Shown: one piece after another, positions 4,344-63,217 of the stretch
Numbering within the stretch: the first letter of the stretch is position 1
How the letters are laid out: each line of letters starts with the position of its first letter
Assembly (NCBI GenBank): GCA_021234155.1
Contig: JAJEKV010000008.1
Coordinates: 3,299,008-3,363,007 of the forward strand
Length of the DNA stretch: 64,000 nt
Origin: Isoetes taiwanensis
Taxonomy: Eukaryota > Streptophyta > Lycopodiopsida > Isoetales > Isoetaceae
Direction: 5' to 3'
Program-made: the position numbers and the translations under genes
The notes under the pieces: model-generated
Database searches by the model: none
Seen by the model: only the letters and a program-made list of their open reading frames with translations
Told to the model about the DNA's origin: nothing

Positions 4344-5862
4344 TCACGCTCCAACATTGCAAGCATCATTGCTGTTGTTGCAGGCAGCTAAGAAAGTCAT
4401 CCAGACCCTGGCATCTTGCTGGAATGGTAGCTCACTCATAATATCTTCTACCTCATCCAGCCAACCTGCCCGACCAAGCAGGTCAACGATACACCTATAA
4501 TGCTCCATTGTTCCCATGGTGCCATAATCTCCACTGATAGAAAGCAAGATAAAACTACCCTGATCTATTAGACCTCCTCGACTGCAAGCAGAAAGAATGC
4601 TGACAAATGTGATCTCATCTGGCTTCATGCCTTGCAAGTGCATGTCTTCATAGAGGCTTAGAGCTTCATTGATGTATCCATGAAGTGTGTATGATCCAAT
4701 CATGGCCGTCCAGGAAGACTGATTTTTAACTGACATCTTGTTAAAAAACTTACGAGCCTCACCTAAAGCCCCGCATTTCCCATACATATTTACAATAGCA
4801 TTCTCCAGAATAATGTCTACATCAATGTTGCTGTCAAAGATACGCGCATGAATTAGTCTACCTTCTCCAAGATTTGTTAAGCCTGCACAAGCATCAAGGC
4901 AGGCTATAAACGTTACCCTGTCAGGCTTGATGCCTACCTTTCGCATTTGACGAAAAAGTACAAGTGTCTCAGCTTCATGTTCATTTTGGGTGTATCCCCC
5001 AAACATAGCGTTCCAGCAGGCCACATCGTCCTGATGCACTTTATTAAATATATGATGAGCATTCTTTACAGATCCACAGCTGCTGTACATATGAGTAAGG
5101 GCTGTTTGTACAAATGGTTCAGATTCTAACTGAGAATTGGGCATGCAAGGATGGACTAACTTTCCCTTTGCCCAAACCAGCCAAGTCTGCACATGCATCC
5201 AGGATGTTTGTGAAGGTAACCATGTTAGGTTGCAGCCCTCCTAGATGCAGCTGCTGGAAAAGTTGAAAAGCATTCTCACCATGACCAAGCTGACTATATA
5301 AACCAATCATTGCAGTCCAAGAAACCACATCATGCTGCGGGATGCTCTGGAACAAGATTTCTGCATTCTCAAGGCTCTCACATTTCCCATGCATACTGAT
5401 TAAAGAAGTCATAACAACAATGTCATTGTGAAAACCAGCCAGAATTGTATAAGAATGTATCAATTTTCCCTGCAGTAATCTTCTAGGCGACTTACATATA
5501 TCGATTATAACAAGAAAGGTGACCCCGTTGGGCATTAAGCCTGCTAACTTCATAGCCTTGAATAGCCTAAAACTGTCATGATAGTGATCGCATTGCACAC
5601 TTACTGCAATAATGGTTGTCCAAGAAATGACATCTTTGTTGCCCATGTACTCAAAGACCCTCCCTGCATCTGTACAACTACCACACTTTCTGTACATGTC
5701 CAAGAGAAGGTTACAAAGAATTGTGAATATTACAGTCACGTGATTGATAATTTGAGCATGAACCCATTTCCCATATGGAAAAGCCTTTAAACTGCCACAC
5801 ATTTTTACCTGATTAGAATATGGTCCATGCAGCAATATTTGTGGCTGACGCTTGGATGACAC
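4344..5862 (-). pseudogene. PLS-class pentatricopeptide repeat protein, one frameshift
   Basis: Two overlapping minus-strand frames (5862-5119 and 5198-4344) read as one PPR protein of about 500 residues. PPR proteins bind organellar RNA in a sequence-specific way and act in chloroplast or mitochondrial editing and processing. About a dozen P, L and S motifs are visible, with the usual signatures DVVSWTAMIGLYSQLG, LQPNMVTFTNILDAC and IKPDRVTFIACLDAC, followed by an E1-like block (GRAGWLDEVEDIM). The frame changes at a three-A run (5161-5163) within the GLGKGK-LVH segment; one base too many would explain it, so this may be a real null allele or a sequencing indel. The leftward open frame begins at a GTG at 5862 with no upstream ATG before a stop, so the transit peptide and first repeats are missing or on another exon. 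No DYW domain is seen. Confidence 0.8.
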
Positions 5863-6376
5863 GCCTCTTTGTTCGGCTAAACATCCTCAATAGCATGTCA
5901 AAAATATATAGTTAGAAAATTTAACGAAATTGAAAATAACTTGCAACAACCTGATCCTCTTTTTACCTAGCGTTTTATAGCTATGAAGAGTAGTTGACAG
6001 TGATGATGCCCCGTTACATCTGCAGAGCAGTTCCATGTAATTCAGCTGAATGGGTCCTGGGTGGGATGTGTCACTCCTAAATGATTAAGGACATGCCTGT
6101 TAAAGGACTATGAGTTTTTGGGGCTCTAACTAAAAAACTCGAGAGACTATACAATAGCGTGCAGGTGAAGACCGAACCATTTTAACGGAATTGCCCCAAA
6201 TGAAAAATTATAGGGTGTAACTTTCAGCTCATGATGCATCAGAAGAATGAGTCAAGCCCTCACCCTTTTCATGACAAATCTACAAGCTATCTGAATCCTT
6301 ACGCCAATGCTGAATTAAATATTACACTTCGCCAGTCAACCTTTGAGTAAAGATAAGAAATTCAAGCACAAAGAAC
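5863..6376. other. intergenic region between divergent PPR and SWEET genes
   Basis: About 0.5 kb separates the leftward PPR reading frame from the rightward SWEET ATG, so any promoters of the two genes must share this space. No convincing TATA box or other element was recognised. Confidence 0.4.
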
Positions 6377-14027: not shown

Positions 14028-15590
14028 TTAATCTACCTTCCACTCACCTATCGCGGTGGGGGTGTCGACTACTTGGCGTGACGTTCGACCCTTGCATTGC
14101 TCCATGAATTGAGGGTATTGCTTCTCCAAATCTGATTGTAGTACCCACGTAGCATCCTCCGCAGTGCGTCGTCCATTTCACAAGGTATTGGAGGAATTTG
14201 GATCTTCTTGTCTTCTTATGAGCCCCTGTCAAGAAGAACCTGCGGGACAATTTCAAGCTAGTCGTCCAGTCATTTCCAAGAACTTCGGTTGTCTCCAATA
14301 CTTCCTCCGGATTAGGAGTGTGCCTCTTTAGGAACTTACATGGAAGACCCTATGGATTTTGAAATGTCTTTGGCATGTCCAACTTGTAGGATTGGGTACC
14401 TACTCTTTTTGGTTATCCCGAAAGGTCCGGCCATCTTGGAGCAAGCTTCTTGCAATTTGCGATCTTGAGCTTGGCCTGCTTCACCTTGATCTTCAACCAC
14501 ACATTGTCTCCCACCTGAAATTCCCTTACCGTTCTATGCTTATCGGCTACACTTTTCTGCCTACTTCTCGCTGCTAGAAGGTAACCTCTTACCTCCTCCA
14601 CCAACTGCTGCATATCCGAAAGCATCTGCTGGGAGACTTCCACTTTTGACACTGGATTATGCCAAGTATCTGGGGTAAGACACTGATACCCATAATTGAT
14701 CATAAAAGGAGACATCTGCGATGACTCCTGCTTAGTGCTATTGTAGGCAAACTCTACTAAGTGGATGAAATCTTCCCACTTAGATTGTTTGTTCCACACA
14801 TAGTTCCTTAGCATATCTTCGATGATCCTATTGGTTCGCTCCGTCTGACCATCTGTTTGCGGATGATATGTTGTGCTCATAGAAAGCTTCGTCTGGATGG
14901 TGGTAAATAGATCCTGCCAAAATGCACTCATGAATTTAGAGTCCCTATCCGAGATTATCTCCCTCGGCATGCCGTGGAGTCTAAAAATCTCCTTAGTAAA
15001 TAGGACGGCAGTATCCAATGCTGTGTCTGTTGTCCTGCACGGCACAAAGTGTGCCATCTTCGACAACTTATCCACCACCACCATCAGGGCATCCTTGCCT
15101 CTTGCTGTTCTTGGGAGCCCTGTAATGAAGTCCATGCTTATGACTTCCCACTTAGCATGTAAGCGGCAACGGCTCCAATGCACAGGATTAGGAGGTGCTC
15201 CGCCTTTGTTTCTTTGGTATATCCGCACTCCACGAATGTACCTTTGCTATCTGCTTCTTCATCTTGGGGCCGTAATTTGCTTCTAATCTAAGTATGTCTT
15301 CATAAACCCGCATGGCCGGCTATGGGGCTATTGTGTGTATCATGTAGAATTAATTTTCTTACTCCCAAAGATTGTGGTACACACAACTTGTTTTTATGGT
15401 ATAGGAGGTTTCCTTCCTTGTTATAGTTCTTGAAGGCCTCCCTTTCTTTATCTGTTCTTGCCTCTTTAGAGAGGCTTGCCCATACTTCTTTAAAGTCGCA
15501 ATCTGTTGGCAAGGTCTCTTCAATCTTCTTGCCATACTTACTGCGTGAGCGTTGATATGGCGTTGCAATGCGTCCCTCGTCTTCAAAGGG
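14028..15590 (-). pseudogene. chromovirus integrase and chromodomain
   Basis: Integrase inserts the cDNA into chromatin; the chromodomain guides target choice. Frames 15586-15300 hold the degenerate N-terminal zinc-binding part (HDTHNSPIAGHAG). Frame 15228-14413 carries the DDE core: MDFITGLPR, HGMPREIISDRDSKF and HPQTDGQTERTNR, then the GDNVWLK-containing C-terminal region. Frame 14298 onward shows the chromodomain: FLQYLVKW, a frameshift, then AEDATWVLQSDLEKQYP, ending at TAA 14030-14028. At least three frame changes make the product non-functional. The catalytic triad itself is present. Confidence 0.9.
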
Positions 15591-15639
15591 ATTTTACGAG
15601 AGGCGATCGTGACTACGTTTAGCTTGCCTGGCTTGTAGG

Positions 15640-16800
15640 CTATCTCGAAGTCATATTCGGTTGCGTGAAGATATACTGGAGGCTTTGATGATCTGTGTCT
15701 AGTTGGAACTTCCTTCCCAACAAATAGTGTCTCCAGATTCGCAATGCTCTTACAATGGCCAAGAGTTCTTGGTCATGAGTTGGGTATCGCTGCTCCGCAT
15801 CATTCATCTTCTTGGAGTCATATGCGACTACCCTTTCCTCCTGCATGAGTACTGCACCTGTTGCTATCCTGCTAGCGTCTGTTGCTACAAGCTTGTCCTT
15901 GGCCGGATCTGGCAAGACTAGGACTGGCGCTATTGTCAAAGCTTCTTTCAAGGTCTCAAACGCTGTATGGGCCTTCTTTTGCCAATGACTTGCCCAATCT
16001 TTTATCTTTCCCGCTTTGGTGAGGTCCGTCAATGGGGCTGCCACCTTTGCAAAGTTCTTGACGAACTTCCTGTAATATCCTGCTAGGCCGAGGAAGCTTC
16101 TCACTTCATGGGTGTTCTTCGGTGCCGGCCAATCAATCACTGCTTCGACCTTCGCAGGGTCCGTGGAAATCCCTTCTGCTGTGATCACATGCCCCAAGTA
16201 CTCCACCCTTTTACATTTGCGAAGTGGCACTTGGATAGCCGCCAAAGAGTTGATGCCTTCTTAGCTTTTCAAGCACCTTTCTCAAGTCTTTGGACATGCT
16301 CGATCTAGGGATTTTTTGTAAACTAGAATATCATCAAAGAAAACTATGATGAAAGAATCTAGGAATTCACGAAAAACATCGTTCATGAGCCTCATGAAAG
16401 TTCTTTGGAGCATTGGACAAACCGAATGGCATCAGCGTGAACTCATAGTGCCCATATCTCGCCCTCACGAATGCGGACTTTATGAATGTCCTCTTCCTTG
16501 ATTCGATCGACGGTGATACCACGACCTCAAGTCTATCTTGAGAAGACCTTTGCTCCCCAAGAATCGATCCATCAAATCATCCGTCGAGGTAGAGCATACT
16601 TGTTCTTGATGGTGTGCTTGTTCAATTGGCGATAGTCAATGCACATCCTAAAACTTCCATCCTCCTTCTTCACAAAGAGTATAGGCGCTCCAAATGGAGA
16701 GACACTAGGTCTTATAAACCCTAGGTCTAGCAACTCCTGCAATTGCTTTTTCAATTCCGTCAACTCCTGGGTTGGCATCCTGTAGGGCGCCTTACTTGTT
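15640..16800 (-). pseudogene. chromovirus reverse transcriptase and RNase H
   Basis: RT copies the RNA genome; RNase H removes the template. RT begins within the frame ending at 16572 ([20 protein letters not shown] then [16 protein letters not shown]), is disrupted around 16570-16250, and shows the catalytic box FFDDILVY at about 16315-16341. Frame 16245-15640 continues with [13 protein letters not shown] and [19 protein letters not shown], then RNase H ([35 protein letters not shown]). Several frameshifts and stops separate the blocks. Confidence 0.9.
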
Positions 16801-17618
16801 GGCTTAGTTCCTAGCTCAAGTGCTATTTCGCACTCGACTCCTCTGTAAGGTGAAAGTTGCTTAATCTCATCTGGGAACAAATCATGGAATTCCTTTACCA
16901 ACTTTGCTATAGGCATTGGGAGCTTGCTCAATGCTTTGGCCTCTTTCTCTTCTGTTGTCTCTTGCTCGTCGACTTCGAGTTTAAAGACATATGCCACTTG
17001 CTCCTTCTTTAAGCATCTAAGCAACTTCTTACTAGACATGCATTGCATGATTGGGGTGACTTCTTTACCTGTTATCTCAATGATCTTGCCCTCTGGCGTT
17101 GTTAAGGTTACTTTCCGCTTCCCACAATCAATCAGTGCTCCCGCCGGCCCAAGGTATTTCATGCCTATGATCAAGTCATACTTGCCGATGTTCATCGCTT
17201 CTGCTCCTATTCCAACATTGATACCTGGCAAGTCTATGTTGAAGTTAATGCTCTTCCCTGCTGTGTGTCGGACTGCCCCACTTGCTAACACAACCGGTTT
17301 AGACTTGGACTTCAAAGGCTTCAACTTCAACATGTCTACCATCCTTGGCGAGGCAAAATTGTGGGTACTCCCTGTGTCTATCAACACTATGAAGGACTTG
17401 GCTTGAGCCTTCCCAGTCGTTGAAATGACTTGATACTGACTCTCAGCATTCTCGGAGTCAATAGCGGCAAAGATGTGGCATTCACCCTGTATGTAGTCGG
17501 GAGCATCATCTTCGTCGACGTCCGTGGGTGTCTCCCATCCTAGCTCTGCTAACGCCGCGTTCATCACAAATGGGCAATTATGCGTCCGATGTCTTGGCTG
17601 GAAGCACCTAAAGCACAA
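16801..17618 (-). pseudogene. chromovirus zinc knuckle and aspartic protease
   Basis: The frame 17618-16572 starts with the gag zinc knuckle [14 protein letters not shown] (CX2CX4HX4C) and runs into a retroviral-type aspartic protease with the active site [10 protein letters not shown] (DTGS at 17378-17367) and the flap/second-lobe signature [10 protein letters not shown]. The protease matures the Gag-Pol polyprotein. This is the longest uninterrupted frame of the element (348 codons) and continues directly into RT. Confidence 0.88.
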
Positions 17619-18830
17619 CTACTTTTCAATACATTCCTGCCTCTTCTCCTTGGGGATGGACATAGAAGCTGCTTTCTTGCCTTGGAGTAGTTTGAACCAC
17701 CTCCTTGCTCCTTGAAGCTGACTGTTTCTTATCACCTTGCCAAAATTTCCGTTGCCTTACCTCTCGGAATTTGCATTGTACTGAGGTCTGCTAGCTGTTG
17801 GGCTTGTTGCTCTTGAGCTGTAGCTTCCTGTAGCCTTCCCCTTGTCCTGATAGTACTGTTGTCTCGGCCCACTCTCTTGAGGTCCTGTTCCTTGCAAAGT
17901 TTGACTGCCTTGGACTCGCCCGACCTTTGTGTGTTGGGGTTTATTGCTCTCACTAGCTTCTGATTTCTTTATTAGGGCCTTTGATGTACCCTCTACCGCA
18001 TGCCTTTCACTCAATTTCGGCACATAGAGCCTTAGCCTCATGAACTCTTGATTGTATACGGACTGTCTTGTTTCCCTTTTGCGCCGCACTTGTAGAATCT
18101 GTTGCATCATGTGACACTTGTGTTCCCTTGGCACATAATGGCGCTTAAATGCTTTGGCAAACTTCTTGAACCGCAACTATCCTGTTTAGCCCATGGCTTT
18201 TGGCATAGCCTTTCCACCAAATCCTTGTTTGCCTCCTTAAGGTTGGCTGTTGCTACTCTGCCTTTGTCCTTATCCTTCATGCTATAACCATTGCCATACT
18301 CCCTCATTTCGTCTAACCATGCCTCGGCTTCCATTCCGATTTGGTATCCCCCGTGAATTGCTCCAACTTCCTGGCTTTCCATACGTTGTTCAATGCCGGA
18401 GTCCACCTTCTTCGATGATGCGCCGCCTGCCTTTTGTCACGGTTGGGACCCTCCGTGGTCCCTGTTGCTCATTCTCTCTGTTCATCGGACTTCGGACTCT
18501 GAGGTCGGAACTTGAGTTGGATGAGTCCATGCTAGGTGACCTCCTTCTCCGGCTTCTCTTCTTTGGTTTAGCCGCTTCACGGGGCTGAAGTTTCTGGCAA
18601 TTGGACGTTCTGGTCTGGTCCGCCCATTGCTGCTCCTGCCAACATTGCTCTTATCTCGTGGACGTCTGACCTTATCTGGGATATCTCCTATTCAGAGGTT
18701 GGTGCTTGAACTCGATCTGATTTCTTGGTTTGGAAGTGCCTTGGCGGTGTGTGCTCTTGCTCATGTTGTCCTTGTTGCTCAACATTCCTAGGTACTCTAA
18801 ATTTTGCATACACATTAGATTGTACTCTGA
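17619..18830 (-). pseudogene. chromovirus gag
   Basis: Capsid region spread over three frames (18406-18107, 18176-17757, 17953-17732). Recognisable retrotrans_gag features: AEAWLDEM, then FKKFAKAFKRHYVPREHK, and VYNQEFMRLRLYVPKLSER, the usual helix-rich capsid core. An arginine/glutamine-rich spacer follows and leads to the zinc knuckle at 17618. The N-terminal part, before 18406, is traceable to about 18800 but holds stops. Confidence 0.8.
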
Positions 18831-18987
18831 TGATTAGTTCTTTGTTTTATCATTGCATTGGTTTGTTTGATGATATAATTGTGGGGACAAAATATATCAA
18901 GAGAACATTATCAATATCACATTTATATTCATAGATATAATATGTTTACATTCAAAGGTAGACATAGAAAATTGAAAATTTTAAGTT

Positions 18988-20530
18988 TTATTCTTGGAAT
19001 CTTTTGATATAGTCTGGGTTGTCCTCCAAGAATTTCCTCACTTGGGCTGTGCCGACCGTTCGCCCTAAGTTTCTCAAAATATTGGTGGCCGTGCCTCCTT
19101 GGAGTGCAGTCACCAAGTCTTCAACCCTTTTGTCTGATGTATAGGCTGCGGTAACTGCCAACCTGCCCTGTCGCCTATAAGGGACCGCGAAGTCGAAGAT
19201 GCTTAATGCTATTGTCCTCTTGACAAGGATGACATGGTCGATGTTTGGGGTCATGCGAGCATGTCTTCCAAATCCTGAGAGAGCAATGAGCATAAAAACT
19301 TCTGCTTCCTCACGTGGGGTGAATTGGCGGTGTATAACTGCTATCCTTCCATCAATGAGCAAAGGTAGATAGAACCTGAGGGCTTTGTCGTGCCCTGCCT
19401 CCTCGCCGGATCTGAATGCAGCCCTGTGTCTTCCGGAGTATTCATCAACCGGTACTTCTACCATCTCCCTGTAGTCGCTGTACATGGAAGACGTTAAGTT
19501 GATGCTGCCTAAGTTGATGATGCCTTCGGTTGGTGCTGGTGCCGCTGCTGAGCTGCTGGGTAAGAGTGCACTCGTTGATTTCCCCCTAATTCCCATCCGT
19601 TCTTGGATTGCTAAGAACTCCTCCTCTGAAGGTAACTCCTGCTAGTCCATCATCTGCCTGATGCCGGTGTAGGCTTCTATGTCCGTCGATGTCTGGCCAG
19701 TGTATGTCTGGGCCTCCCTTATACTAATGGGAAAGTCCTGTGTCTCTCGGTCGATGAAGTCATCGAGGTCCGATTCTTTGTCGTGGGGAGATGTAGGAGC
19801 TCGTCTACCCTGTAGCCCCTGTCCCTGCACTCTGGAAGGTTCTTGATGTCGTGGAGGCTCAGGTACGCCTCTCCTTGGATAATTACTGGGGTTAAGCTTG
19901 TGATGCCTAGCCCAAGTGGTGGAGCTGTCCACGTGGTTCTCATCCCCTCTTCAAAGCTCTGGAGTTGCTGCTCTGGTTGCTGCCTTTCTTTTACTAGGTC
20001 GACGTCAGTGATGTCTTCCGTGTCCAACCCACGTCCCTCCTCTTCCTCCTACTCCTCCCTCTCGTACTCGCACTTGACTGCTCTTCTTCACCTGCTGCCA
20101 TGGCCATAGGCTCAATGTCTAGGGGTTGGACAGATGGTTCCCTTTATCCGGGTTTGGGCTTTATGGGATAGGAAGATTGCTATACTGCGGTGTCGGAGAA
20201 ATATCTCCTCCTATTTCTTGATACAGACATATAATTAGGCAAGCGGGTAGCCTTGTTTTCTAAATACTTGTCTATGTTAGGGATGTCTTGCAGAGCTGTA
20301 CGAAGGGCTATGCTTGAAGCAAAGTATCCTATGCAAGTTGGGAGTTCTACCAGAGAAGGTCCTATCTTGGCATGGAATTCGGCCATAATCTCTTGGTAAT
20401 AGGGGGTGGCATTGATGGTTGCATCCACATCAATCTCCTTCTGAAAGACGGCAAAAACTGAGTTAATGTCGGCCTCGGCTACGTGAGCAATGGCGCCTGT
20501 ACCATCGCCTAAATGCGGATGTTGCCATGA
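18988..20530 (-). pseudogene. extra ORF upstream of gag, unknown function
   Basis: Between leader and gag lies about 1.5 kb of additional coding sequence. It starts near an ATG at 20518-20530 (MATSAF), shifts frame once, and continues through 20428-20180, 20027-19719, 19932-19642 and 19596-18988. The last part (about 200 residues) is intact: an Ala/Pro/Ser-rich start, then a folded-looking domain with SIFDFAVPYRRQGRLAVTAA and ending in DNPDYIKRF. It lacks a zinc knuckle or catalytic motif I know and is separate from gag, which follows at 18830. Ogre/Tat-type elements also have an ORF before gag, but those lack a chromodomain. Function unknown. Confidence 0.7.
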
Positions 20531-23329: not shown

Positions 23330-24830
23330 AATGGCTATATCACGCGACCACAACGTATTACTCCGAACTCACGATTGCACGTTGGTGATCTTAAATTTTC
23401 GCTGGAATTTGGACTCTAGAAAGCAGGAGAGAATCCTGGTGAGTACGACATGGTAGTTGGCCATCCCTTTCTTTGCAAGGCCAGAAGCATTCACTATTGG
23501 CCACTGATCAATCGCTTATCATAGATAGCATTTTTCATGCTACTATGGATTATAAAACAGGCCAACTCATTTTGTTGATCATGCTAAACCTCACCTATCT
23601 GATAGTGACTCAGGGGATGCTCACAATACTTATAAAATTCAAGAATCTGTAAGTCAAGACTCTCGGTCCTTCTCATCCTGAAGAGGAAGACCCTTGGGCT
23701 AATATGGATCTTGCCAATGATCACGCTATTATTATGCTGGTTGATCCACATTTAGCTCCTCGCCATGAAGTCCAACTGGTGAATCTACCTGCAGAGGAAA
23801 CCCCTCTGGATACTCTTATGCAGGATGTTGCACGATCCTTTTGACAAATAATTGTTCCCAAGGATCAACAACCCTTGCTTTTCGTGACTGCTAGTACTGA
23901 ACCTCCTGACTTGCTTCAATCTTAGTAGCTCACACAGGACACAGACGCTGACGTGATCCCTCATATCCAAACTCCTGAAGTTGAAATTATTGATCTTGGA
24001 ACAAACCAGCTTATCCTTCTGGCGACTAGTCTTTCCACTCCATATCATAGCCGTGCCATTTATCTCTTTAAGAAGTTCAAACACACCTTTGCCTAAAGCT
24101 GCAAAGATTTATGAGCTATCAAGGAGTTAGGGGAACTGACCATTACTACCAAATCTTACTCATGCTCCATTTAGCAATGATAGTACCAGTTGAACCCCAA
24201 CTATTGAGACCACATCAAGGCTGAAATTGATAATTCTTTGGTTGCATGTCTGATTTATAAAGTTAAGCATTCTCATTGTCCTCAAACATAATGCAAAGAT
24301 CCGTGTCTACTACCACAAACTAAATCCGGCCACTGCATGTGACCATTTTTCCCTACCCTTCATGGATCAAGTTCTTAAAGAGGTTGCGAGTCATACAATA
24401 TATTCCTTCATGGATGTTTTTTCATGCTACAATCAGAACTCCATTAAACCAGAAGATCAACTCAAGACTACCTTTACTATGCCTAGCACTTTTGCCTACA
24501 AAGTGGTTCCTTTTGGATTATCAAATTCTTCTTCTACTTTTCACTACATTATGCTTTTTGTTTTTCAGGATCCCATGAAAGATAATGCCTTTCTATAGGT
24601 CTTCCATGATGACTTTTTTCACTTACAGTTCCATGGATGATCACTTCTCTAATCTGAAACTTGTCTTTCTAGAATGTGATGATCTCGGCATCAGTTTAAA
24701 TCCAAAGAAGTTTAATATTCGTGAGGTTTCTGGTGTTAATTGGGACATGTGGTCAGTCATTACATCATTAGCATAGATCAAGCTAAAATCGGTTGTGTGG
24801 TCAAAGCAAATCAAGTCCTTTCTTGGTCAG
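23330..24830 (+). pseudogene. second Ty3/gypsy remnant (protease and RT)
   Basis: Degenerate plus-strand pol sequence in opposite orientation to the adjacent chromovirus. Protease-like YDMVVGHPFL appears near 23450. RT blocks follow: HTIYSFMDVFSCYNQ (24390-24435), IKPEDQLKTTFTMPSTFAYK, VPFGLSNSSSTFH, a damaged VFHDDFF catalytic box near 24600, and FLECDDLGISLNPKKFN. The RNase H and integrase parts are missing; a LINE remnant begins at 24835. No LTRs were found. Confidence 0.85.
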
Positions 24831-26836: not shown

Positions 26837-27050
26837 AAATTCTTGTATAAGGGAATGTTAAGTAACTTGACATTCCCGTTACGTGGAAACCACCTACCAA
26901 ATATTTTGTGCAAAAAAATTCTTTCCCCGTTTCCTCCCTCCGTAGACTGGAGCGCTCTTGGTGATGACCGACTGAGATTTGGAGGCGCTCTTGGAGGGTG
27001 CCTTTGCTTATGTTGTTAGATTAGCGACTAATATGAGAGATTAGCGACCT

Positions 27051-27167
27051 GTTTGAGAATTTAGCAACAAGTTTGTGAGTTCTTGGAGCAAGATTGTGAG
27101 CGATTTTTGTTTGAGAATTTAGCAGTGAGTTTGTGAGTTCTTGGAGTAAGATTGCTACGATTTTGGA
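27051..27167. repeat. 58-bp tandem duplication
   Basis: Units starting GTTTGAGAATTTAGCA at 27051 and 27109 repeat with about 90% identity. They lie just upstream of the first coding exon of the recombinase-like gene and could be in its 5' untranslated region or promoter. Confidence 0.8.
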
Positions 27168-27298
27168 GTTTTTATGATGAGTTCTTATTTTTATCAAGTA
27201 ATAGCAGCTTGCTTTTTTTACTTCTTTGTTTTTTGTTATAGCCTTAAAAAGTATGCTTAGGCTTTCATTCTGTTTTTGTGTCAGTAGAGGCTCTACGA

Positions 27299-29394
27299 AT
27301 GGGGGAAGCTTTAGGAATGGAGGAAGCTCCTTCCTTTAATCTGCATGCTACAATGGAGTGTTCCAGCACTCCAAGAGGTTGTTTGAGTGATATCACGAAT
27401 ATTTCAGAAGATCTTGCAAAAGACTTTGAAGAATCTCTACTGGACGAGTTTGATAGCAAAGAGATAGATGATTACTTGCATGCAGTTGAGTCTTCTGGTT
27501 GTGAATTAGTTTCTCTGGCCAAGAATAATGTGGTGTCAGATAAAAAAGATAAGAAAGGCAAATGCAAGCAGTTTCTAGATATGGATGAAGCTCTAATGCA
27601 GGAAGTTAGATCAGGAGGGATAAATAAGCCAGAATCTAAAGTAAAATGGGCTCGAAATAAGTTTGATGCATGGAGAAGGCATGTTGGACTGGATGATAAT
27701 GTTCCTGTTGAGGATTTGAATATGAAACAGTACTGGCATGTTAGAACGCTTTATATTGCAGGTTATAAAGGACAATGGCAGCATGTACCCAACTGAATCG
27801 TGAGTTGCATATCCTTTCTTTTTTATTTGTGTCCTTTTATTGATGAATAATGTGTTTTGTGTTTAGCATTACAAGATCTTTTTAGAAAATTTAATGCTAT
27901 GATAAGACGAAAACATGAAATAAAAGTGGCAGAAATAGGTATTGAGGAGGTGTTTGAAATTAGAACATCTCCTATCTTCAAGCAAGCTAGATTAGCTTGT
28001 ATTGGAGCAATGAGATGGTCAAGAAACACTCCTGGAATATGTTGTAAGCGTAAGATATGAAGCTTCTTTTGGCACTGAATTAGCATTATCTGATATTGAG
28101 GAGCTTGCTGGACTTGTAATTACAGATTTTAATGTTGAGAACAGATGGCAAGGATGTTTTAGTGTATGGTGAGAGGCTAAGCAAGAACAATGATGTTAGT
28201 ATGTCTAAATACCAAGAGGAGTCCTTTCGTCCACCTGTTGAATGTTATGAAGAAGATGTGGTCAGAACATTCTAGCAGCTTTTTAGATATTTGCCAAAGA
28301 AGTATGAAACTAAAAAGGGAAAGCAATATGCATTCATGCAAACTATCGTTAATCCTCGTTCAAATGTAAGTCTTCTTATTTAAATCTACTTCATTTTCTA
28401 CTTGACTTTTTATATTTTGAACATAATAGAATAGTTTAACAGAATGTGCTTTGCATGTAGGTTTGGTATAACTGCAAGCACAGGGTTAATGGTAGGAAAT
28501 TGACTACTTGGATGAAATGCATGGCTGAGCTAGTTGGTGCAGAAGGCAATTTAAGTGGCAAAAGTGGTCGTGCCACTTTAGTTTCAAGGATGTGTAGAAG
28601 TGGTGTTCCAATATCAGTTGGAATGGATGTGACTGGCCACAAGACTGCCGAGGCATACGAAAGGTATTACCTTCCTTTGTTTTATGAATTTTGCTTTGTT
28701 TAACTTCACATGTATAATAAGAACAAGGAGATTGAATCAAAATGTGCCTTGGATATTGTTGCAAATCCATTTGATGAGAATGGTAATCGTCGACTTTTTC
28801 CAAAAGGATATAAGAAAGAATTGCGTGCTCATGATAAACATGACAGTTCAGGTATTTTCGTGTGAATTTTGAAATTGATAATGACAATTTTACATTCATT
28901 TATTGGATGGTACAGGTATTGTAGTGCCTAAATTTCTTGGTTTGGCTCCAAAGTACTTTCCTATTTCTGCGCCTAATTTTGGTAAATGTAATTTTGTCTG
29001 TGAAATTGGTCCTTGTGATGTGAAATTTAAATCCATTCTAATTTATATTGATATAGGTGGTGGAGCACTCACCAACACAAGTTACATTCCTGATTCTTCT
29101 ATGCCGAAGACTTCGGCTACAACTTCTGTAGCGAGTTCTTATGCTCTCACTTCTATTATGAATACAGGTATATGAATAGATTTGTGAATCTAGGTTTATG
29201 CATTGTCCCTTTCTTATTTACGTTTATGCAATGTTGCAGGTGCTCCAATCGTCCATTCTGAAGTTATGGTTCAAGATGCTGAACCTATGAATGATAACAA
29301 GCAGTTGAATGAAGACCTAGAAGCTTTGGCTAGAGCTGATCCAGTTGTTCGTCGAGCTCTCAATTTGGAGACTAACGAAATGTGTGTTCCATAA
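27299..29394 (+). pseudogene. Crypton-like tyrosine recombinase gene (DUF3504-type), multi-exon, decayed
   Basis: Parts in order: an acidic N-terminus; the N-terminal core-binding segment (KWARNKFDAWRRHVGL, then in a shifted frame RFILQVIKDNGSMYPTES, then MRWSRNTP); a middle domain (ASFGTELALSDIEELAG); and a catalytic C-domain (VWYNCKHRVNGRKLTTW, SGKSGRATLVSRM, TGHKTAEAYERY), with the likely nucleophilic Tyr nine residues after the GH. This is the DUF3504/Crypton pattern; such enzymes cut and join DNA through a covalent phosphotyrosine. Likely exons: ~27284-27799, 27867-28365, 28461-28663, 28712-28851, 28916-28981, 29057-29167, 29240-29394; the last three junctions are clean GT-AG, phase 1. 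Decay: a frameshift near 27740, frame changes in exon 2, a TAG near 28273, and AT instead of AG before 28712. The catalytic HxxR His reads Lys. Intron retention excludes a processed copy. Either a transposon or a host gene derived from one. Confidence 0.75.
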
Positions 29395-29734
29395 TTGTGT
29401 GATACATTTCTAATATTAAAAATTCTGATTTTTGAACACATGAAACCAATGATCATGTTTTGATCATGATTGTGAATGAAAATTCAACTTGAGATACATT
29501 TGAATGGGAATGGTTACCTCGTTTACTTGTCTTAAATTCTTGCACTGCGACTCGCATGAAACCAATATATAGATTGGCTTCTCATTCATCTCAGCAGATT
29601 TTCTACAATGGTGGACAGTGGATAGCCGCACACATGCGAACTACCCACGAAAAATAAAGGGAAAATCCAATTATATCATTTGGACCCCAAAACAAATACA
29701 ATGCTAATAGATGAGTGGCTGATGTACCTGCCGA

Positions 29735-29830
29735 AAGCTTATCACTGGGATTAAAAAACCCCGCCCTTTCGGGTTTTCGAGGAAAAACCCTAGTGATAAG
29801 CCTTCGGCAAGGGGCTTAGACAAACGTAAG
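29735..29830 (-). mobile_element. LINE 3'-end fragment with conserved stem-loop
   Basis: Minus-strand GGGTTTTTCCTCGAAAACCC followed by GGGGTTTTTTAATCCCAGTGA matches the 3' end of the LINE at 40490-43270 (about 43125-43175). An outer inverted repeat (GCCGAAAGCTTATCACT and AGTGATAAGCCTTCGGC) encloses it. Confidence 0.65.
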
Positions 29831-30240
29831 GCATAGAATCGCTCCCAAAAACCCGCGCATGGAGAAGTCAAAACGAATGGCGCTCGCCAACCTGTACCTG
29901 CACATCACCAACAACAAACGAGAAACATACCAAAGAATAGCATCACCCAGTGGGTGGAAAAAAAGCATCACCCACCGGGTGGAAAAAACATGATAAACAG
30001 AACTTGTACAAAATATAATAAACAAAGAAGGGGGGGAGGGTGGGTTCAAAGAGAATAAGGTACTGCTGAGAGAAGAGGAAGCGCCGATGAAACGTCGATG
30101 AAGAACTCTGCAATAAGTAGCAAACGCCCAACCTGATGAACGGCCCAAAACGCATGCGATGCATGCATGCGACGCATGCAATGCATGCATGCTCGTCTTG
30201 AGCAAGAATGCCGATTCGCTACGCGAATCGACGACATTGT
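29831..30240 (-). other. probable LINE 3' region with short palindromic repeats
   Basis: Upstream of the LINE 3' end on the minus strand. Holds two 24-bp units with CACCC...GGGTGG stems (29941-29988), a GCATGC-rich block (30151-30195), and a perfect hairpin CGATTCGC-TAC-GCGAATCG (30212-30230). No coding domain was recognised; assignment to the LINE rests on adjacency. Confidence 0.4.
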
Positions 30241-30470
30241 TTAAATTGCCTTTAAGTTGCTGCTATATCTATAATAAAATGTGTAGAATGTTCACTACAT
30301 ATAGAATGTTCACTAAATGTACAAAATGTTAACTAGAATGCTTAGTAAATGGCAATTCCAGGATTGACTGTTCTGCCACGTGGCAAACACTCATTGGGAG
30401 ATAGGGCAGAATTTTTGGTAGGTGGTTTTTATTTACGTATATATGTTTGATTTGATGTCCAAGTTTACAA

Positions 30471-30887
30471 ATGCCCGAAAATTACAAGGTATTTGCAAGA
30501 ATATATCTATCCAAGGTGCGTCCTTTTGAGATATTTTTGGTGTCGGGGAGAAGAATGGAGCTATGCGGGGTTGTAATTACGGAAGAGCTTGAAACAGTGG
30601 GGGCCGGATCGCCCGCATGGCTTCACAATCCTAGCCTTAAGTTAGCCATGGCTCCTGACCGCCTTGCAATTGCCCTCAGATCCGTCCTTGTTATATCGGA
30701 ATGGATATGGTTGGAAGCGCCTCGTTCTTCAAAACCTTTTGCAACTGTGATCAAAATAGGCACTGGAGATGGAGAGGTTATCACGGCAGTAGAATGGCTC
30801 CTTTGGGATGGATGGAGCGCCCTCGCGGTAGGAAGCTCCACGGGAGTCTTGCGATTCTATTCTGAGAAGGGTAATCTGCTCGTCAAG

Positions 30888-30919
<32 letters not shown>

Positions 30920-33253
30920 CTTGTTAGCCTTTGGATTTTGTTTGTTTAAGGCGTAGTTTAAAATGCTGAAAATGCAACAGGGGTAGCATTTTAGGGTAAT
31001 TCGGTAGTCCAACAAATGCCCAGCATAGAAGAAGTATGCTCAAGAAACATACTGATATAGAGTAACCTTCTATGGACTCAACTAATCTTAGTCTGGGTTA
31101 GTGATGGTCATCATATTGGCATCACCCTGGCTTAAAAACTAGGAAACTGTTAGCAACGCATAATCACTCGCACTTCTTAGAATGGAAGAAAATGATTTGA
31201 AACCTCCATGGCTGCTCATCTCCATGCTTTATACTATCTGAAGTAATAAAGAATGCCCGAACATACTATGTGTTTTCTTTGTCTGTTTCCTGTATAAGAG
31301 AGTTGCACTTTAATGCAAATTCCCAGGGAGGAATCCCTGCCGACGTGCGTCAGCGCGGAGGCTGGGATGACTAATAATAAACCAAACCATTCTTAGCATA
31401 ATAAGTGAAATAGAAATGTACCTATCTGGTGTCATAGGCTCAAGAGGTCTTTTCCAGATGCAAATAAAATTCTACAGTACTTAGGAGTTTATAATGCTTT
31501 AGAATATTCAAGGACTCTATTTATTAAGCCTGATCCTATGGGAACTTCAACAGACCTTAAACAGTCAAAAAATACACAGCTTAGTCTAATTCTTTCTTGT
31601 ATCTGCCAGAACATGCATGTGGGTGCTGTGTTGCAACTACGAGTGAGAGGTCGCTCAAAACAGTGGACTCAAGATGTCACAGAGGACCTCACAGTCGTTT
31701 TCCAGAATAACATTGCTCGGATTGATGCCATAGAACTTCAGGCAAGCAATACAGGGTTAATAATGATATCAAAAGTCTTATTCTCACTTAAAATGACTGA
31801 TATGTATCTACTAATTGCAGTCACATTTGCGGAGAGGAGTATTGGAGGTTGGTAGTTCAAGGTCAAGTTTGTTTAATATGTCACATGATAAGGAAATATC
31901 AGACGCAGAATTGGAAACTGGGAAGATTGCTTATCAGATGTGGAATGTCAGCAAATATTTAGGAACAAATAACTGTAAGGATGCAGCTATCACTGGTGTG
32001 ATGGTTCCAGCTTTGTTTGAACAACAGGTATGTTTTAGTATCCACTCTGGATTGGGCAGTAAACTCTGAATTGGATAGTAAAAATTTTGAACTGTGGGAA
32101 TTATGCAGACAAGACAAAGGTACTTCTGTGCTATAACTGTAGGAGTTGGTAGTACTATTGCAGCATTTAGGTAAGCAGCCTTTTCTCTTTCCGAGATTTT
32201 CTTGTGCAGCTTAACAATTATGGTTATAAGATGAGAAGCTTTCACATCAGAGGTTATGTATTTGAATATAGCGATGACAGTTGTTCAATATGTTACTATT
32301 ATTCGAGGCAGATGCTCAATGGTATTGTTTCTGGGATTGCTTAGACAAAGTGTTATTGATAAATTCCAGGGTATCCGAGGATAGAAGCAGCACATTAACT
32401 GGCATGTTCTTTTCCCGGGTTGTTCCAGCTACAGTGTCCACTATTTCCTCTCTAACCAAGGTCTTCTGGCGTAATGAACAAAAGACAGACATAAGGCCAA
32501 TAGATGTCAAACCTCAGGACTTTGGAAGGGGTAAGGCTGTCTGCTGAAGTGTGATATAGAATACTTTCATTGGCTCAAATGTTGGAATCTGCAGCTTCCC
32601 TTATCACAGCATTGAAAGATTCCTTAAGGAGAGGAGAAAGGCTTGCATTGTCGCCAACCAGATCTTTGGCTGCTGTAACTGATTCTCTTGGCCGTGTTCT
32701 ATTGGTTGACATATATGCCATTGTTGTTGTTCGAATGTGGAAGGTACAGTCTGTGATATCTCAAAAGGGTAAGGGTTTTATTACTGATCATCATTTATCT
32801 GGATGTAGGGCTATCGAGATGCTCATTGCATGTTTTTAGAGCTCCCAGACAGTAGGCTTGTAAACCAACCTGGTTGCTCCATGGATAACAGTGTGCGATT
32901 TAGTCGAAAGGACAACTTTGTTTTATGTCTTGCCATCCATGCCCCCAGACGAGGTATTGTAGAGGTAATGTACTGGATCATGTTTGCAAAGTTCCATAGT
33001 CTCATGCTTATAATTCTTGCAACATTTTCATGTTCATGCATTGAATTTTCAGATATGGGAGCTGCGGAATGGTCCTTGTATTTCTGTCATAAGCTGCACT
33101 GAGAGTTGTAGATTATTACAGCCATCCTCTTCGTTTTGGACTTTCAATGCTATCTCGGAAGACGAGGAAGGAGAATATTTGCCATTGCATGTATATATGT
33201 TAAATGGTGATTCTGGTCAACTGTTGCTTATTAATCCTGTTCTCAAGCCCTAA
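30471..33253 (+). CDS. Rab3GAP2 N-terminal-domain protein (Rab3GAP regulatory-subunit homologue)
   Basis: Eight exons: 30471-30890, 31610-31741, 31821-32027, 32109-32170, 32370-32530, 32595-32743, 32809-32964, 33053-33253. The spliced frame is open for 495 residues. Family landmarks: EELETVGAGSPAWLHNP, ITAVEWLLWDGWSALAVGSS, VLQLRVRGRSKQWTQD, DAAITGVMVP, FFSRVVPATVSTISSLTKVF, LAAVTDSLGRVLLVD, GYRDAHCMFLE and LAIHAPRRGIVEIWELRNG. These match the Rab3GAP2_N domain of the non-catalytic subunit, which with the catalytic subunit regulates Rab GTPases in membrane traffic and autophagy; plant homologues are short and consist mainly of this domain. An internal ATG at 30555 aligns better with plant N-termini. 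Intron 2 has a GC donor; intron 1 opens with 28 T. The gene looks intact. Confidence 0.88.
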
Positions 33254-40489: not shown

Positions 40490-43270
40490 CAAGTTGCATC
40501 TTTGACCTGGTTATTTGTAATGGTGGCACAATGGCCGTCTTCCGGTTGCTACACTTGTAGACAGGGAGAACCAAGGGGGCGGCTCCAGGTGTGGTGGATT
40601 ATCTGCTGGTTGAGGAGCAGATCTGCACTGGTTACTCATTTTCCATCGGGGATGTACACCTCGGGCGAGGAAGTAGATCGGACCACCGCCTGCTCATGCA
40701 TCTCCATTGGGAGGCTTCCTGCACCTCGCCGCTTCAACACACCGGATGCCCTAGTCACTGACTACCACCGTCACGGGGACCTATGCCCACTGCTTGAGCA
40801 CGATCCGGCCGGGGCTGCTGCAACTCCCTACACTTCAAGAGCACCGGCCGAGCCGCTTCGCCGCTTGGCCAAGGCCGAAAAGATGCTTTGGGAGAGGCCG
40901 CCACTACGAACCACAGGCACTACCACCTTTCCCTCAAGAACAAATGGTTTGATGATGAGTGTCGGGAGCTCAAACGCGACACTCCAGGCAAGTCATCCCA
41001 TCCCATCTCCCCAGGCCCCTTCCATCAATAAATAGCGCCTTTCTCAAGAACAAGAAGGCGGATACCTTGCAGAGCATAAGCCTTGATGTTTGGTCTCTGG
41101 GACCGCACCCCGGGACATTACGGAGAAGGGTCTTGAGCAAGCCTGCCGCATGATACTGGGGAACATTGCATGGCTCTGGTTATCACTGAAGGGATGTTAT
41201 CATGGGCCTCTGAGGTCTAGCTAATGGGAAGGCAAAGATTTAGATGGCGCAAAAGCGTAACTTCGAAATGGGGGCGGCCTCCATCGGTGCCTCGTCCTCA
41301 CGGCATTATTCAATAAAGCATTGCGAGAAGGCTTCCCACGCAATGGATCACTATGAGTAGTGCCCATCTACAAAGCGGGGACCCTCAATGCCCGGCCAAC
41401 TACCGTACTATTATGGTCAGCTCTCTCTTTGCAAAACGTTATGGCATCCTTGAGCAGCGTCGACAATATGGGGCGTAAGAAAGCGGAGGTGAGAGCTCTT
41501 ACAGCAGGGTTTTCCGCCCGGACATTCCACCATTGATCATATCTTCACTCAAGACATTGATTGAGGATAGCGAGGAATCGCTTAGGGCTGCAATGTTGTT
41601 TCGATTGATTTTGCAAAAGCGTTCGACCGCGATTACCCGCAACAAGCTCAGGGGGCGATTGCGACAATTTGGGGACCCCCGGACTTGCGAGAATGCATTA
41701 TATATAGGTCAGACGAGGCATGCTCGGGCCGTATCACATCAGCAAAGACAACCGTGTCGTGAGCATTGGAGTCGTCGGGGTTGCCCCCTCTCCCCCACAC
41801 TCTTTGGCCTATACATTGATCGGTTGGAAGATTGGCTCTCGAGCATGGAGGTCTTGGGCGCACATCTCATGCATCACACAATCCGGGCAACTCATATATC
41901 TGACGATGTCAACCTCATGGCCTACCTCCGAGGAGGACATGCGGCGTCACTGGATGCTCTTGACACTTTTGCCAATTCGGCATGCGAGTGAACTTGGCCA
42001 AAACTAGGTCTTTGCTTAGTTGCATCATCCGTCGACCAAGGCTTCCCACCTTCACTTACCGGGGGCAAGAGGTAGAGGTGGCTCCAACCTACAAGTACTT
42101 GGGATTGAGTTCTCAACTACCACCTATTGGGATGCGGCTATCGAGGTTGCGGGTCATGGCGGGTTGGAAAGCACTATATGCCATGCGAACAACAGACCAC
42201 AAGGCAGTTATGCACGCACAGGGCCACCAATCACATTTGTTTGGGCCTTGGTTGAGCGGTCTGTTGTATGGGGGCGTGCTGTGGGGTCCGGTCATCTCCC
42301 TCAACACATGGAATGACCTCGGTAGGTGCGGAAGGCCTTCTTGGCACGGGCCCAGGGGTGAAGTCCACGGTTCCTGCAGATCCTACTCGAGGAGGCAGGC
42401 TTTCTACCCCTTCAATCCGGGCCGCATTGGAACGCCATATCGTTTACTTCCAAAAGGTGGTCGCTATGGGCGATACACGCTTTGCCCCATCTTGTTTTTG
42501 ACCGGCGATGGGTCCCCAACGCACGAAATCCTATTTGGAAAGACAAGCAAGCTCGATTGGTTCTCACTGGGGTGTGCAGCAAACAGATGCGTCCGTGTCG
42601 GGACAAAGAAAGATCGCGAGGCACTTAAAGCTGTACCTAGATGCTACTTTCCCCGCAAGCTCGGGATGCAGAGGCTCGACGGCGACGCTAAGGCGGCACA
42701 CTATCGGCGAGAAGTCAATCCTAGGCTCACAAGAGGCCCGCACCAAGATTTTGTACACCCGGTACGCCCATGAAGAAGCCGGCACTTATAGCTTCCATTC
42801 GCGACGGTGCACATCGCCTCCGCATTGAAACAGGCGTTGGGCTCGGGAAGCACGAGAGCAAAGGCTTTGCGTTGTTGCACCCGTGGCGCGATTGAGGATG
42901 AATGTCATACCCTCCAGATCCGCGCGGCATTTGCCCATATCCGAGAGGTATGTTCGACTACTAGTGCCCGCCGGCCGTTTGCATCGATTATTGACTACGG
43001 TGTCGTGGGTTTGTTGGGGTCATACCTCCGAGGAGGTTATGGATGCACTGGACGCGTTTGTGTCCTACGGGCGGTCTTGAATCGTCCTATGCAATTGTCT
43101 AGATGTGCCGGCATGCTTATTATCGCTTAAGGTTTTTCCCTCGAAAACCTTCGCCCGGGGGTTTTTTAATCTCACGTAATATGCTTGTCTGCTCTCTTTG
43201 TTTGGGTCCCATAGGCCAATTGGTCTCCGTGGGACGCCAAAACCTATTCTATTCTATTCTATTCTATTAA
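40490..43270 (+). mobile_element. LINE, 5'-truncated, with pentamer tail
   Basis: Begins inside the endonuclease domain (DLVICNGG, WPSSGCYTCRQGEP, GVVDYLLVEEQICTGYSFSI, then SDHRLLMHLHWE near 40680). RT blocks follow in shifting frames: VVSIDFAKAFDRD (near 41615), a degenerate SDDVNLMAYL catalytic box (near 41905), and the KYLGLSSQ-type thumb region near 42100. The 3' end has a stem-loop and a pentamer tail (43244-43268, ATTCT units). Endonuclease nicks the target and RT copies the RNA there; this copy has many frameshifts and is dead. It lies inside the Helitron. Confidence 0.88.
43131..43160 (+). other. LINE 3' stem-loop
   Basis: AAGGTTTT and AAAACCTT pair around a TCCCTCG loop, followed by a GGGGG-T6 stretch. 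The equivalent loop at 29735-29830 (minus) keeps the stem with an A-T to G-C change. Confidence 0.65.
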
Positions 43271-61573: not shown

Positions 61574-63217
61574 CTAGCCTTGCCATAATGGGACACTTCT
61601 CTTACTCTTAGTTGATGAAATGGCACTAGAAGTAGAAAACTCCGTAGATGGGGAGTTGCCAGATTCTGATTGCAAAGCAAATGCAGAAAAGCCATAAGAG
61701 AGAGAGATAGTTGGCATTGAGGAGGGAAGAGGTGGAAGGGAGGAGTCTTCTCCATTAAGAGCAAGGCAACATCGTCTAGAGCTTGGTCTCAATTCTGCAT
61801 CAGGATGGGCAGCCAACAGACCAAGAGACAATACTACAACCATTTTTGTCCCCAAGACGAGGATCAACAACCTGCACCAACTCATTCCTTTGGTGGGCTT
61901 GCCAAACCCATTCTAACAAATAAGTATGATCACCTTTATTTGATATAACTGGCCTTCCACAACCGACCTCCAATAGAAGTATTCCAAAGCTGAAAATGTC
62001 AGACTTCTCATTTGCCCTGCCAGTTAAAGCCAATTCTGGTGCCATGTAGCCTGGTGTGCCTGCCTGGGTCATTGTTTCCTGGAACTTGGTATCTCCCAGG
62101 AGCTTTGCTAAACCAAAATCTCCCAAATGGGGCACAAATTTGGCATCCAATAAAACATTAGCAGCTTTGATATCCCGGTGCACTATTCTCTGCTCCCATC
62201 CTCCATGTAGAAAGGCCAATCCTTCAGCCACACCTTTCACAATTTCATACCTATTACTCCATGGCAAAAACTTATCTGTCGAAAATAAATAATGATCTAA
62301 ACTCCCATTCTCCATATAGTCATATGCCAAGAGCAACTTGTTGGCATGATGACACCATCCCCTCAAACCCACCAGGTTCTTGTGTTTGAGCCTCCCTATA
62401 ACATCAAGTTCTGCCAGGAATTGACCTTGGACATCTTGCGACATAACCTTAATAGCCAACAAGGATCCATTGGCCAATACCCCTTTATAGACCTTTCCAA
62501 AACCCCCTCGCCCGAGTACCTCCTCTTCACTAAATCCTTTAGTAGCAGCACTGAGCTCGGAATAGCTGAATCTCCACACAGCTGATTGCTGCAGCTTTGC
62601 CTCCCATTCATAAAAAGGTGTCCCCTTTCTTTTCAGCCTGAAGTATATCCAGCCTATAATTGAAGCTACAACTAAGGTAATCACTGCACCTACTAATGTG
62701 AGGATGATAATAAGCCATTTAGAACTAGAATTAGGAGGGGAAGTCCCAGAAGTGACTGCTATCTTCATACCAGATGCTGAGCATAATGTTCCTTTCATGC
62801 AGATATAGTAATAGGTCTTCGCTTCTGTAAGTATGAAGGTCATATTGCCATTGAGGTATGTGACATCAGTGGTATAACAGTTTTCGTATCCATCCCTGTT
62901 CACTTCTACCAGGTCATATGTAGAATTATCAAAGACGAATCCTGTGGCAGAGTGGAAGCAAAAAGGTTTAGGTAGGCATCCATCAAGCACGAAAACATTT
63001 AAATAATGTGAAGCAGGAAAAACTTACTCAGGGAGTCCCCAACATTGAAGCTAATGTTTGCACCCCAATCAGGATAATTAATGCCTTTAGACCATCCCTG
63101 ATTCCCCCCTACAGTGTAGGTTGTCAAATTTTGGTCCCCATCTTGTGCACACACACAGTAGGCTGGGAGGAAAACTCCAAGCAGAAGACCAAGATAAATT
63201 TTTGACATAATCCGCAT
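61574..63217 (-). CDS. early-nodulin-like (phytocyanin) receptor kinase, C-terminal frameshift
   Basis: Two exons, 63217-63028 and 62941-61574; GT-AG intron. Signal peptide ([20 protein letters not shown]), phytocyanin-like ectodomain ([19 protein letters not shown] then, after splicing, [35 protein letters not shown]), one transmembrane segment ([20 protein letters not shown]), and a Ser/Thr kinase with [31 protein letters not shown] and GTPGYMAPE. The two copper-ligand histidines are replaced (Tyr; Leu in GTLC), as in early-nodulin-like proteins, so copper binding is unlikely. Expected at the plasma membrane as a cell-surface sensor. In a five-A run (61842-61848) the frame shifts; the next frame carries the normal kinase end ([20 protein letters not shown]), so this is either a null allele or a sequencing error. 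Confidence 0.85.

Follow-up and report, generated by a model that had tools for sequence, protein, structure and literature searches.

We report that the plus strand of a 64,000-nucleotide stretch of Isoetes taiwanensis DNA (the window, that is the whole stretch analyzed) carries a broken multi-exon gene at positions 27299-29394, as read from the letters and their open reading frames (ORFs). Judged by superfamily profiles, its predicted product is a tyrosine recombinase. We lean towards reading this gene as a decayed copy from a Crypton-like DNA transposon residing in a plant, and between a transposon remnant and a dead domesticated gene we consider the remnant likelier. In its intact form the gene would encode a protein of about 560 residues, whose catalytic domain is of the tyrosine-recombinase type. 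Tyrosine recombinases cut DNA via a 3'-phosphotyrosine link and then exchange strands. Intact relatives of the plant copy might accordingly cut and rejoin DNA through such a link, and the element would be excised, perhaps as a circle, and reinserted; an excised circle that reintegrates is the proposed route for Cryptons in the passages of the literature cited here (PMC3212892).

The gene is composed of open stretches at 27299-27793, 27869-28057, 28053-28157, 28138-28368 and 28461-28700, which are followed by the tail pieces, and its last frame is closed by a TAA (29392-29394). The exon borders given in Table 1 are predicted and represent our own reading of the sequence. All six candidate introns start with GT and five of them finish with AG. 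Their T content lies between 0.44 and 0.55 and their GC content between 0.25 and 0.32, compared to an exon GC content of 0.39. Beyond the catalytic tyrosine a C-terminal tail of approximately 150 residues follows, in which no transposon domain was found; its end exon (29240-29394) matches no Pfam family above the cut-off.

Table 1. Candidate exons and introns of the recombinase gene, the inverted pair around it and the neighboring gene (positions refer to the window).
Feature	Position	Strand	Remarks
Left arm of inverted pair	26887-26908	+	AAACCACCTACCAAATATTTTG; candidate element end
Candidate exon 1	27299-27799	+	N-terminal part with KWARNKFDAWRRHVGL; open to 27793; GTGAGT donor at 27800
Candidate intron	27800-27866		67 nt, GT-AG
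Candidate exon 2	27867-28365	+	middle part; end portion (TDGKDVLVYGERLSK...) colinear with DUF3504 in the alignment
Candidate intron	28366-28460		95 nt, GT-AG
Candidate exon 3	28461-28663	+	catalytic: WYNCKH, KSGR (box II), TGHKTAEAYER
Candidate intron	28664-28711		48 nt, CAT end
Candidate exon 4	28712-28851	+	starts at Tyr of ERYNKN; border inferred from sequence
Candidate intron	28852-28915		64 nt, GT-AG
Candidate exon 5	28916-28981	+	C-terminal tail; GT-AG intron on either side
Candidate intron	28982-29056		75 nt, GT-AG
Candidate exon 6	29057-29167	+	C-terminal tail; GT-AG intron on either side
Candidate intron	29168-29239		72 nt, GT-AG
Candidate exon 7	29240-29394	+	tail end including TAA
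Right arm of inverted pair	30407-30428	-	CAGAATTTTTGGTAGGTGGTTT; candidate element end
RAB3GAP2 first exon	30555-30890	+	PF14655, E 5.6e-13; 126 bases past right arm, 1.2 kb downstream of gene

Several lesions interrupt the coding sequence. A TGA (27794-27796) stands in exon 1 shortly ahead of the donor, and the frame is not kept into exon 2, where three frames are in use from about 28050 to 28140 and a TAG is encountered further on (28273-28275). The piece beginning with YNKNKEIES (from 28712) has no AG before it, which corresponds to the loss of one splice acceptor. The copy is a pseudogene, and the full enzyme is not encoded by the present frame. A preliminary description of this DNA had offered a domesticated host gene as one alternative; as the present copy is a pseudogene, it does not represent a working domesticated gene. 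Such a large number of lesions is expected for an old transposon copy and counts in favor of a transposon remnant.

The assignment to the tyrosine recombinases is based on matches to several profile collections. Pfam Phage_integrase (PF00589) matches the ORF 28461-28700 with E 4.3e-4 (20.5 bits) and the joined catalytic piece of 145 amino acids with E 4.2e-5 (23.8 bits), both falling under the curated cut-off of 27.1 bits for this family. PHROG integrase families match the 145-residue piece with E 3.5e-4 and 8.5e-4, and NCBIfam gave no match for the plant piece up to E 1.

The preliminary description had further assigned the gene to the Crypton/DUF3504 family and had called for a search of the joined translation against Pfam DUF3504 (PF12012). 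This search left the joined protein as well as its separate pieces without a match. We also report results from a profile of our own, for which real DUF3504 proteins were collected with a bait. PF12012 spans residues 115-263 of this bait, up to the WY region, and the plant equivalent of this part is mostly the broken exon 2. The bait was an animal CryptonA-like sequence, which Pfam itself calls DUF3504 (E 1.1e-31); it drew 788 proteins from 1,780 candidates at E<=1e-5, the best 120 of which all carry PF12012. The 111 proteins of at least 350 residues among these 120 were used to build the profile. The joined plant protein scores 45.3 bits against it (E 2.7e-13, 1,005 targets) and a catalytic piece of 123 amino acids 30.0 bits, compared to 11.7 bits for the integrase P0001 and 2.8 bits for the best of 1,000 shuffles. 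Six bacterial and phage integrases reach at most 22.8 bits, two cyanobacterial ones scoring 22.8 and 21.7 bits, which indicates that approximately half of the plant score is common to tyrosine recombinases in general. On the sequences compared, the DUF3504-specific signal consists of the extra score of the middle piece and of the WY motif.

The unspliced ORF 28461-28700 ranks first when all 1,230 six-frame ORFs of the window (at least 30 amino acids) are compared to the DUF3504 profile, and it is the only one to match (E 1.1e-6, 23.8 bits; next ORF E 0.67). In BLASTP searches at a fixed database size of 2e9, a 206-residue piece comprising the middle and the catalytic part matched 88 out of 121 proteins at E<=10 (best 57.0 bits), and a catalytic piece of 114 residues matched 56 out of 121 (best 46.6 bits). 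No protein (0/121) was matched by the N-terminal piece or by the exon-2 piece. The best 12 alignments show 24-31% identity and are colinear for about 190 residues. Bacterial and phage integrases reached up to 41 bits in tblastn among the 20 rows listed out of 48 phage and 308 plasmid records with a match. CryptonF elements are characterized by GCR1_C or Ndc10-type domains (Pfam names); neither is found when Pfam matches to the joined protein are considered as far as E 10.

WYNCKHRVNG, SGKSGRATLVSRM and TGHKTAEAYERY, previously claimed as the catalytic block, all lie in the single open frame 28461-28700, and the tyrosine described nine residues past the histidine of GH is present. The N-terminal segment KWARNKFDAWRRHVGL indeed lies in the open frame 27299-27793; its attribution to DUF3504 receives no backing from its profile score, which is -1.1 bits for the segment alone, or from the BLASTP result given above. 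Among the DUF3504 proteins, the best 120 of the 788 drawn, NH[ST]xR occurs in 108 and GH with a tyrosine nine residues on in 107. The plant copy possesses GKSGR and TGHKTAEAYERY, so that the box II arginine and the tyrosine are retained and the histidine is replaced by lysine. The box I arginine of GLRGRQEHH aligns to a serine in LALSDIEEL in the alignment as extended by us; the frame is broken in this region, which is apparently shorter than its animal counterparts, and the box I arginine is not recognizable. The full R-H-R-Y tetrad, by which the tyrosine recombinase superfamily is recognized, is therefore absent from the plant copy, and an intact copy may differ. The WY motif is found in 105 of the same 120 DUF3504 proteins and in the plant sequence, compared to none of the six bacterial and phage integrases.

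Among the groups compared, the closest resemblance is to CryptonA/DUF3504 (PF12012) proteins of animals, e.g. the KIAA1958-like proteins P0058 and P0100 from Clytia and Oculina, with which the plant copy shares the colinear catalytic region, the WY motif, the TGH..Y block and the box II arginine. It differs from them by the lysine in place of histidine, the unrecognizable box I arginine, its introns, the long tail and the inverted pair described below. Bacterial and phage tyrosine integrases (PF00589) belong to the same superfamily, and the plant sequence reaches 20.5-23.8 bits against their profile; it scores lower against them than against DUF3504, in the profile comparison as well as in BLAST.

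We calculated a tree from the plant piece, 21 DUF3504 proteins chosen from the best 120 and the six bacterial and phage integrases; CryptonF, CryptonS, CryptonI, DIRS and Ngaro sequences were not among its rows. The 21 DUF3504 rows form a group with a support of 97/92, and the plant row is placed outside of it. It sides with DUF3504 at a weak support of 72/82, beside the very long branch of a cyanophage integrase; the plant itself is on a long branch, and the tree program flags long branches. We read the plant gene as probably nearest to CryptonA/DUF3504 among the groups tested and as a separate lineage outside that clade. The earlier family call thus stands with regard to the DUF3504 profile and the shared WY motif, and does not stand if a nested member of the family was meant.

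A further hint arises from the surroundings of the gene, which is enclosed by an inverted pair of 22-nucleotide arms (Table 1). The arms are complementary at 20 out of 22 positions, 15 exact, and bracket 3,542 bases. Dinucleotide shuffles of both flanks never reached 20 (0 out of 300, best 19), and one did among 179 segment pairs drawn at random from the window. The pair exceeds chance. We propose that it may mark the ends of a 3.5-kb element. No clear target-site duplication is seen at the pair, and no further copy of the gene is present within the 64-kb window. None of the ORFs of at least 80 amino acids between 26887 and 30428 shows a domain of a reverse transcriptase, of RNase H or of a DDE transposase; decay could hide remains of these.

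For the favored reading, a decayed Crypton-like transposon gene, count the DUF3504 profile and BLASTP scores with the first rank among 1,230 ORFs, the WY motif, and the inverted pair in excess of chance. The retained box II arginine and tyrosine count for it as well, as Kojima and Jurka report, in the passages cited, that the animal DUF3504 genes have all lost the tyrosine and the second arginine (PMC3212892). It is weakened by the unrecognizable box I arginine, the lysine in place of histidine and the unmatched Pfam DUF3504, by the partly general score and the weak tree placement with its long branches, by the lack of a clear target-site duplication, and by the presence of six introns, which are many for a transposon. 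Animal Cryptons are moreover reported to lack terminal repeats as well as a C-terminal domain (PMC3212892); with its inverted pair and its tail the plant copy departs from this description, which also counts against a transposon. The strongest competitor is that a plant host gene, domesticated from a Crypton-like recombinase like the animal genes ZMYM, QRICH1 and KCTD1, has become a pseudogene. The domesticated DUF3504 genes include ZMYM2-4, QRICH1, KCTD1 and WOC, and they resemble the plant gene in having a related recombinase domain and in having lost catalytic residues. Seven candidate exons with five GT-AG introns out of six and a long C-terminal tail without any transposon domain found would suit a resident gene, and the unrecognizable box I arginine and the replaced histidine would be a sign of lost recombinase activity. 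The tyrosine and the box II arginine of the plant copy are kept, unlike in the animal genes, its frame is broken, and the enclosing pair suggests an element; we therefore regard domestication as unlikely, albeit deserving of attention.

Two further explanations concern the origin of the sequence. It could be a tyrosine recombinase of another source (DIRS/Ngaro-type, a transferred bacterial or giant-virus integrase, or an undescribed eukaryotic group), the likeness to DUF3504 being merely general. The weak placement of the plant row, external to the DUF3504 clade, would fit this, as would the bacterial integrases with up to 41 bits in the tblastn matches listed and 22.8 bits against the DUF3504 profile. 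The difference between 45.3 and 22.8 bits and the WY motif argue against it, as do scans of viral contigs, which yielded no confirmed relative. DIRS and Ngaro retrotransposons carry a reverse transcriptase and an RNase H beside the recombinase, neither of which was found in 26887-30428 in the ORFs considered above. We judge such an origin to be quite improbable. Least credible of all, and in our view very hard to maintain, is the reading that this is not plant DNA but contamination, or that it was recently acquired from an animal. It would agree with the observation that the few named DUF3504 relatives among the matches listed are cnidarian, but at 24-31% identity the best 12 alignments are too distant for recent animal DNA. 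The GC content of the gene is 0.36 compared to 0.41 for the window. PPR, receptor-kinase and RAB3GAP2 genes are typical of plants; their presence in the same window on the flanks of the gene, along with the T-rich introns, suggests native plant DNA.

Cryptons are a rare kind of mobile element. Their known hosts, in the passages cited, are fungi, oomycetes, a diatom and animals (PMC3212892). The label itself is not new for plants: it occurs in repeat tables for Atriplex, Prunus and in a plant transposable element atlas (PMC7261831, PMC10722297, PMC8729191), and a survey of 257 species names Crypton among the superfamilies present in all groups studied, land plants included (PMC4438587). The passages on these repeats share the label with our gene and give labels and counts, with no sequence or gene anatomy. 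Within the reach of our literature search, which many subscription papers lie beyond, no plant Crypton is described with its sequence or a DUF3504-type gene anatomy. With the present gene a real protein is now offered for checking such labels in plant repeat tables.

As a broader and decidedly tentative idea, to which we give less credence than to the transposon reading of the single copy, land plants may possess, or may once have possessed, an old Crypton-like DNA transposon lineage of their own that is rich in introns, has inverted ends and a long tail, and is nearest to animal CryptonA/DUF3504 but separate from it; plant host genes may also have been domesticated from this lineage. If true, this would push the origin of Cryptons towards the base of the eukaryotes, or would demonstrate transfer between kingdoms. 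It would also give plants an equivalent of the source from which the animal genes ZMYM and QRICH1 arose.

We additionally report features of the window that lie outside the gene. The RAB3GAP2 gene, a neighbor separate from the recombinase gene, has a further exon at 32555-32836 (E 4.3e-18). A PPR-repeat gene on the minus strand (4344-5886) has its frame split over two overlapping ORFs (4344-5240 and 5119-5886), the segment 4344-5237 matching PF13041 with E 1.8e-28. Retroelement ORFs on the minus strand at 14413-19641 (rve, E 9.2e-10; RVP_2 aspartyl protease, E 3.2e-11) probably belong to one LTR retrotransposon, and a lone reverse-transcriptase fragment is located on the plus strand at about 24254-24598 (RVT_1, E 3.1e-9), upstream of the recombinase gene and outside the inverted pair. 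Direct repeats of 47 nt (two copies, 91%) and 20 nt (two copies, 80%) are found at 27018-27154, just upstream of the gene. Downstream of it an 81-bp hairpin element (29729-29809) has 24-nt arms that are 88% complementary; a match to it at 43120-43186 (76% over 70 columns) may point to a small family of foldback elements. A receptor-like kinase ORF on the minus strand (61800-63023) shows a weak plastocyanin-like match before the kinase (PF02298, 22.7 bits; cut-off 20.8).
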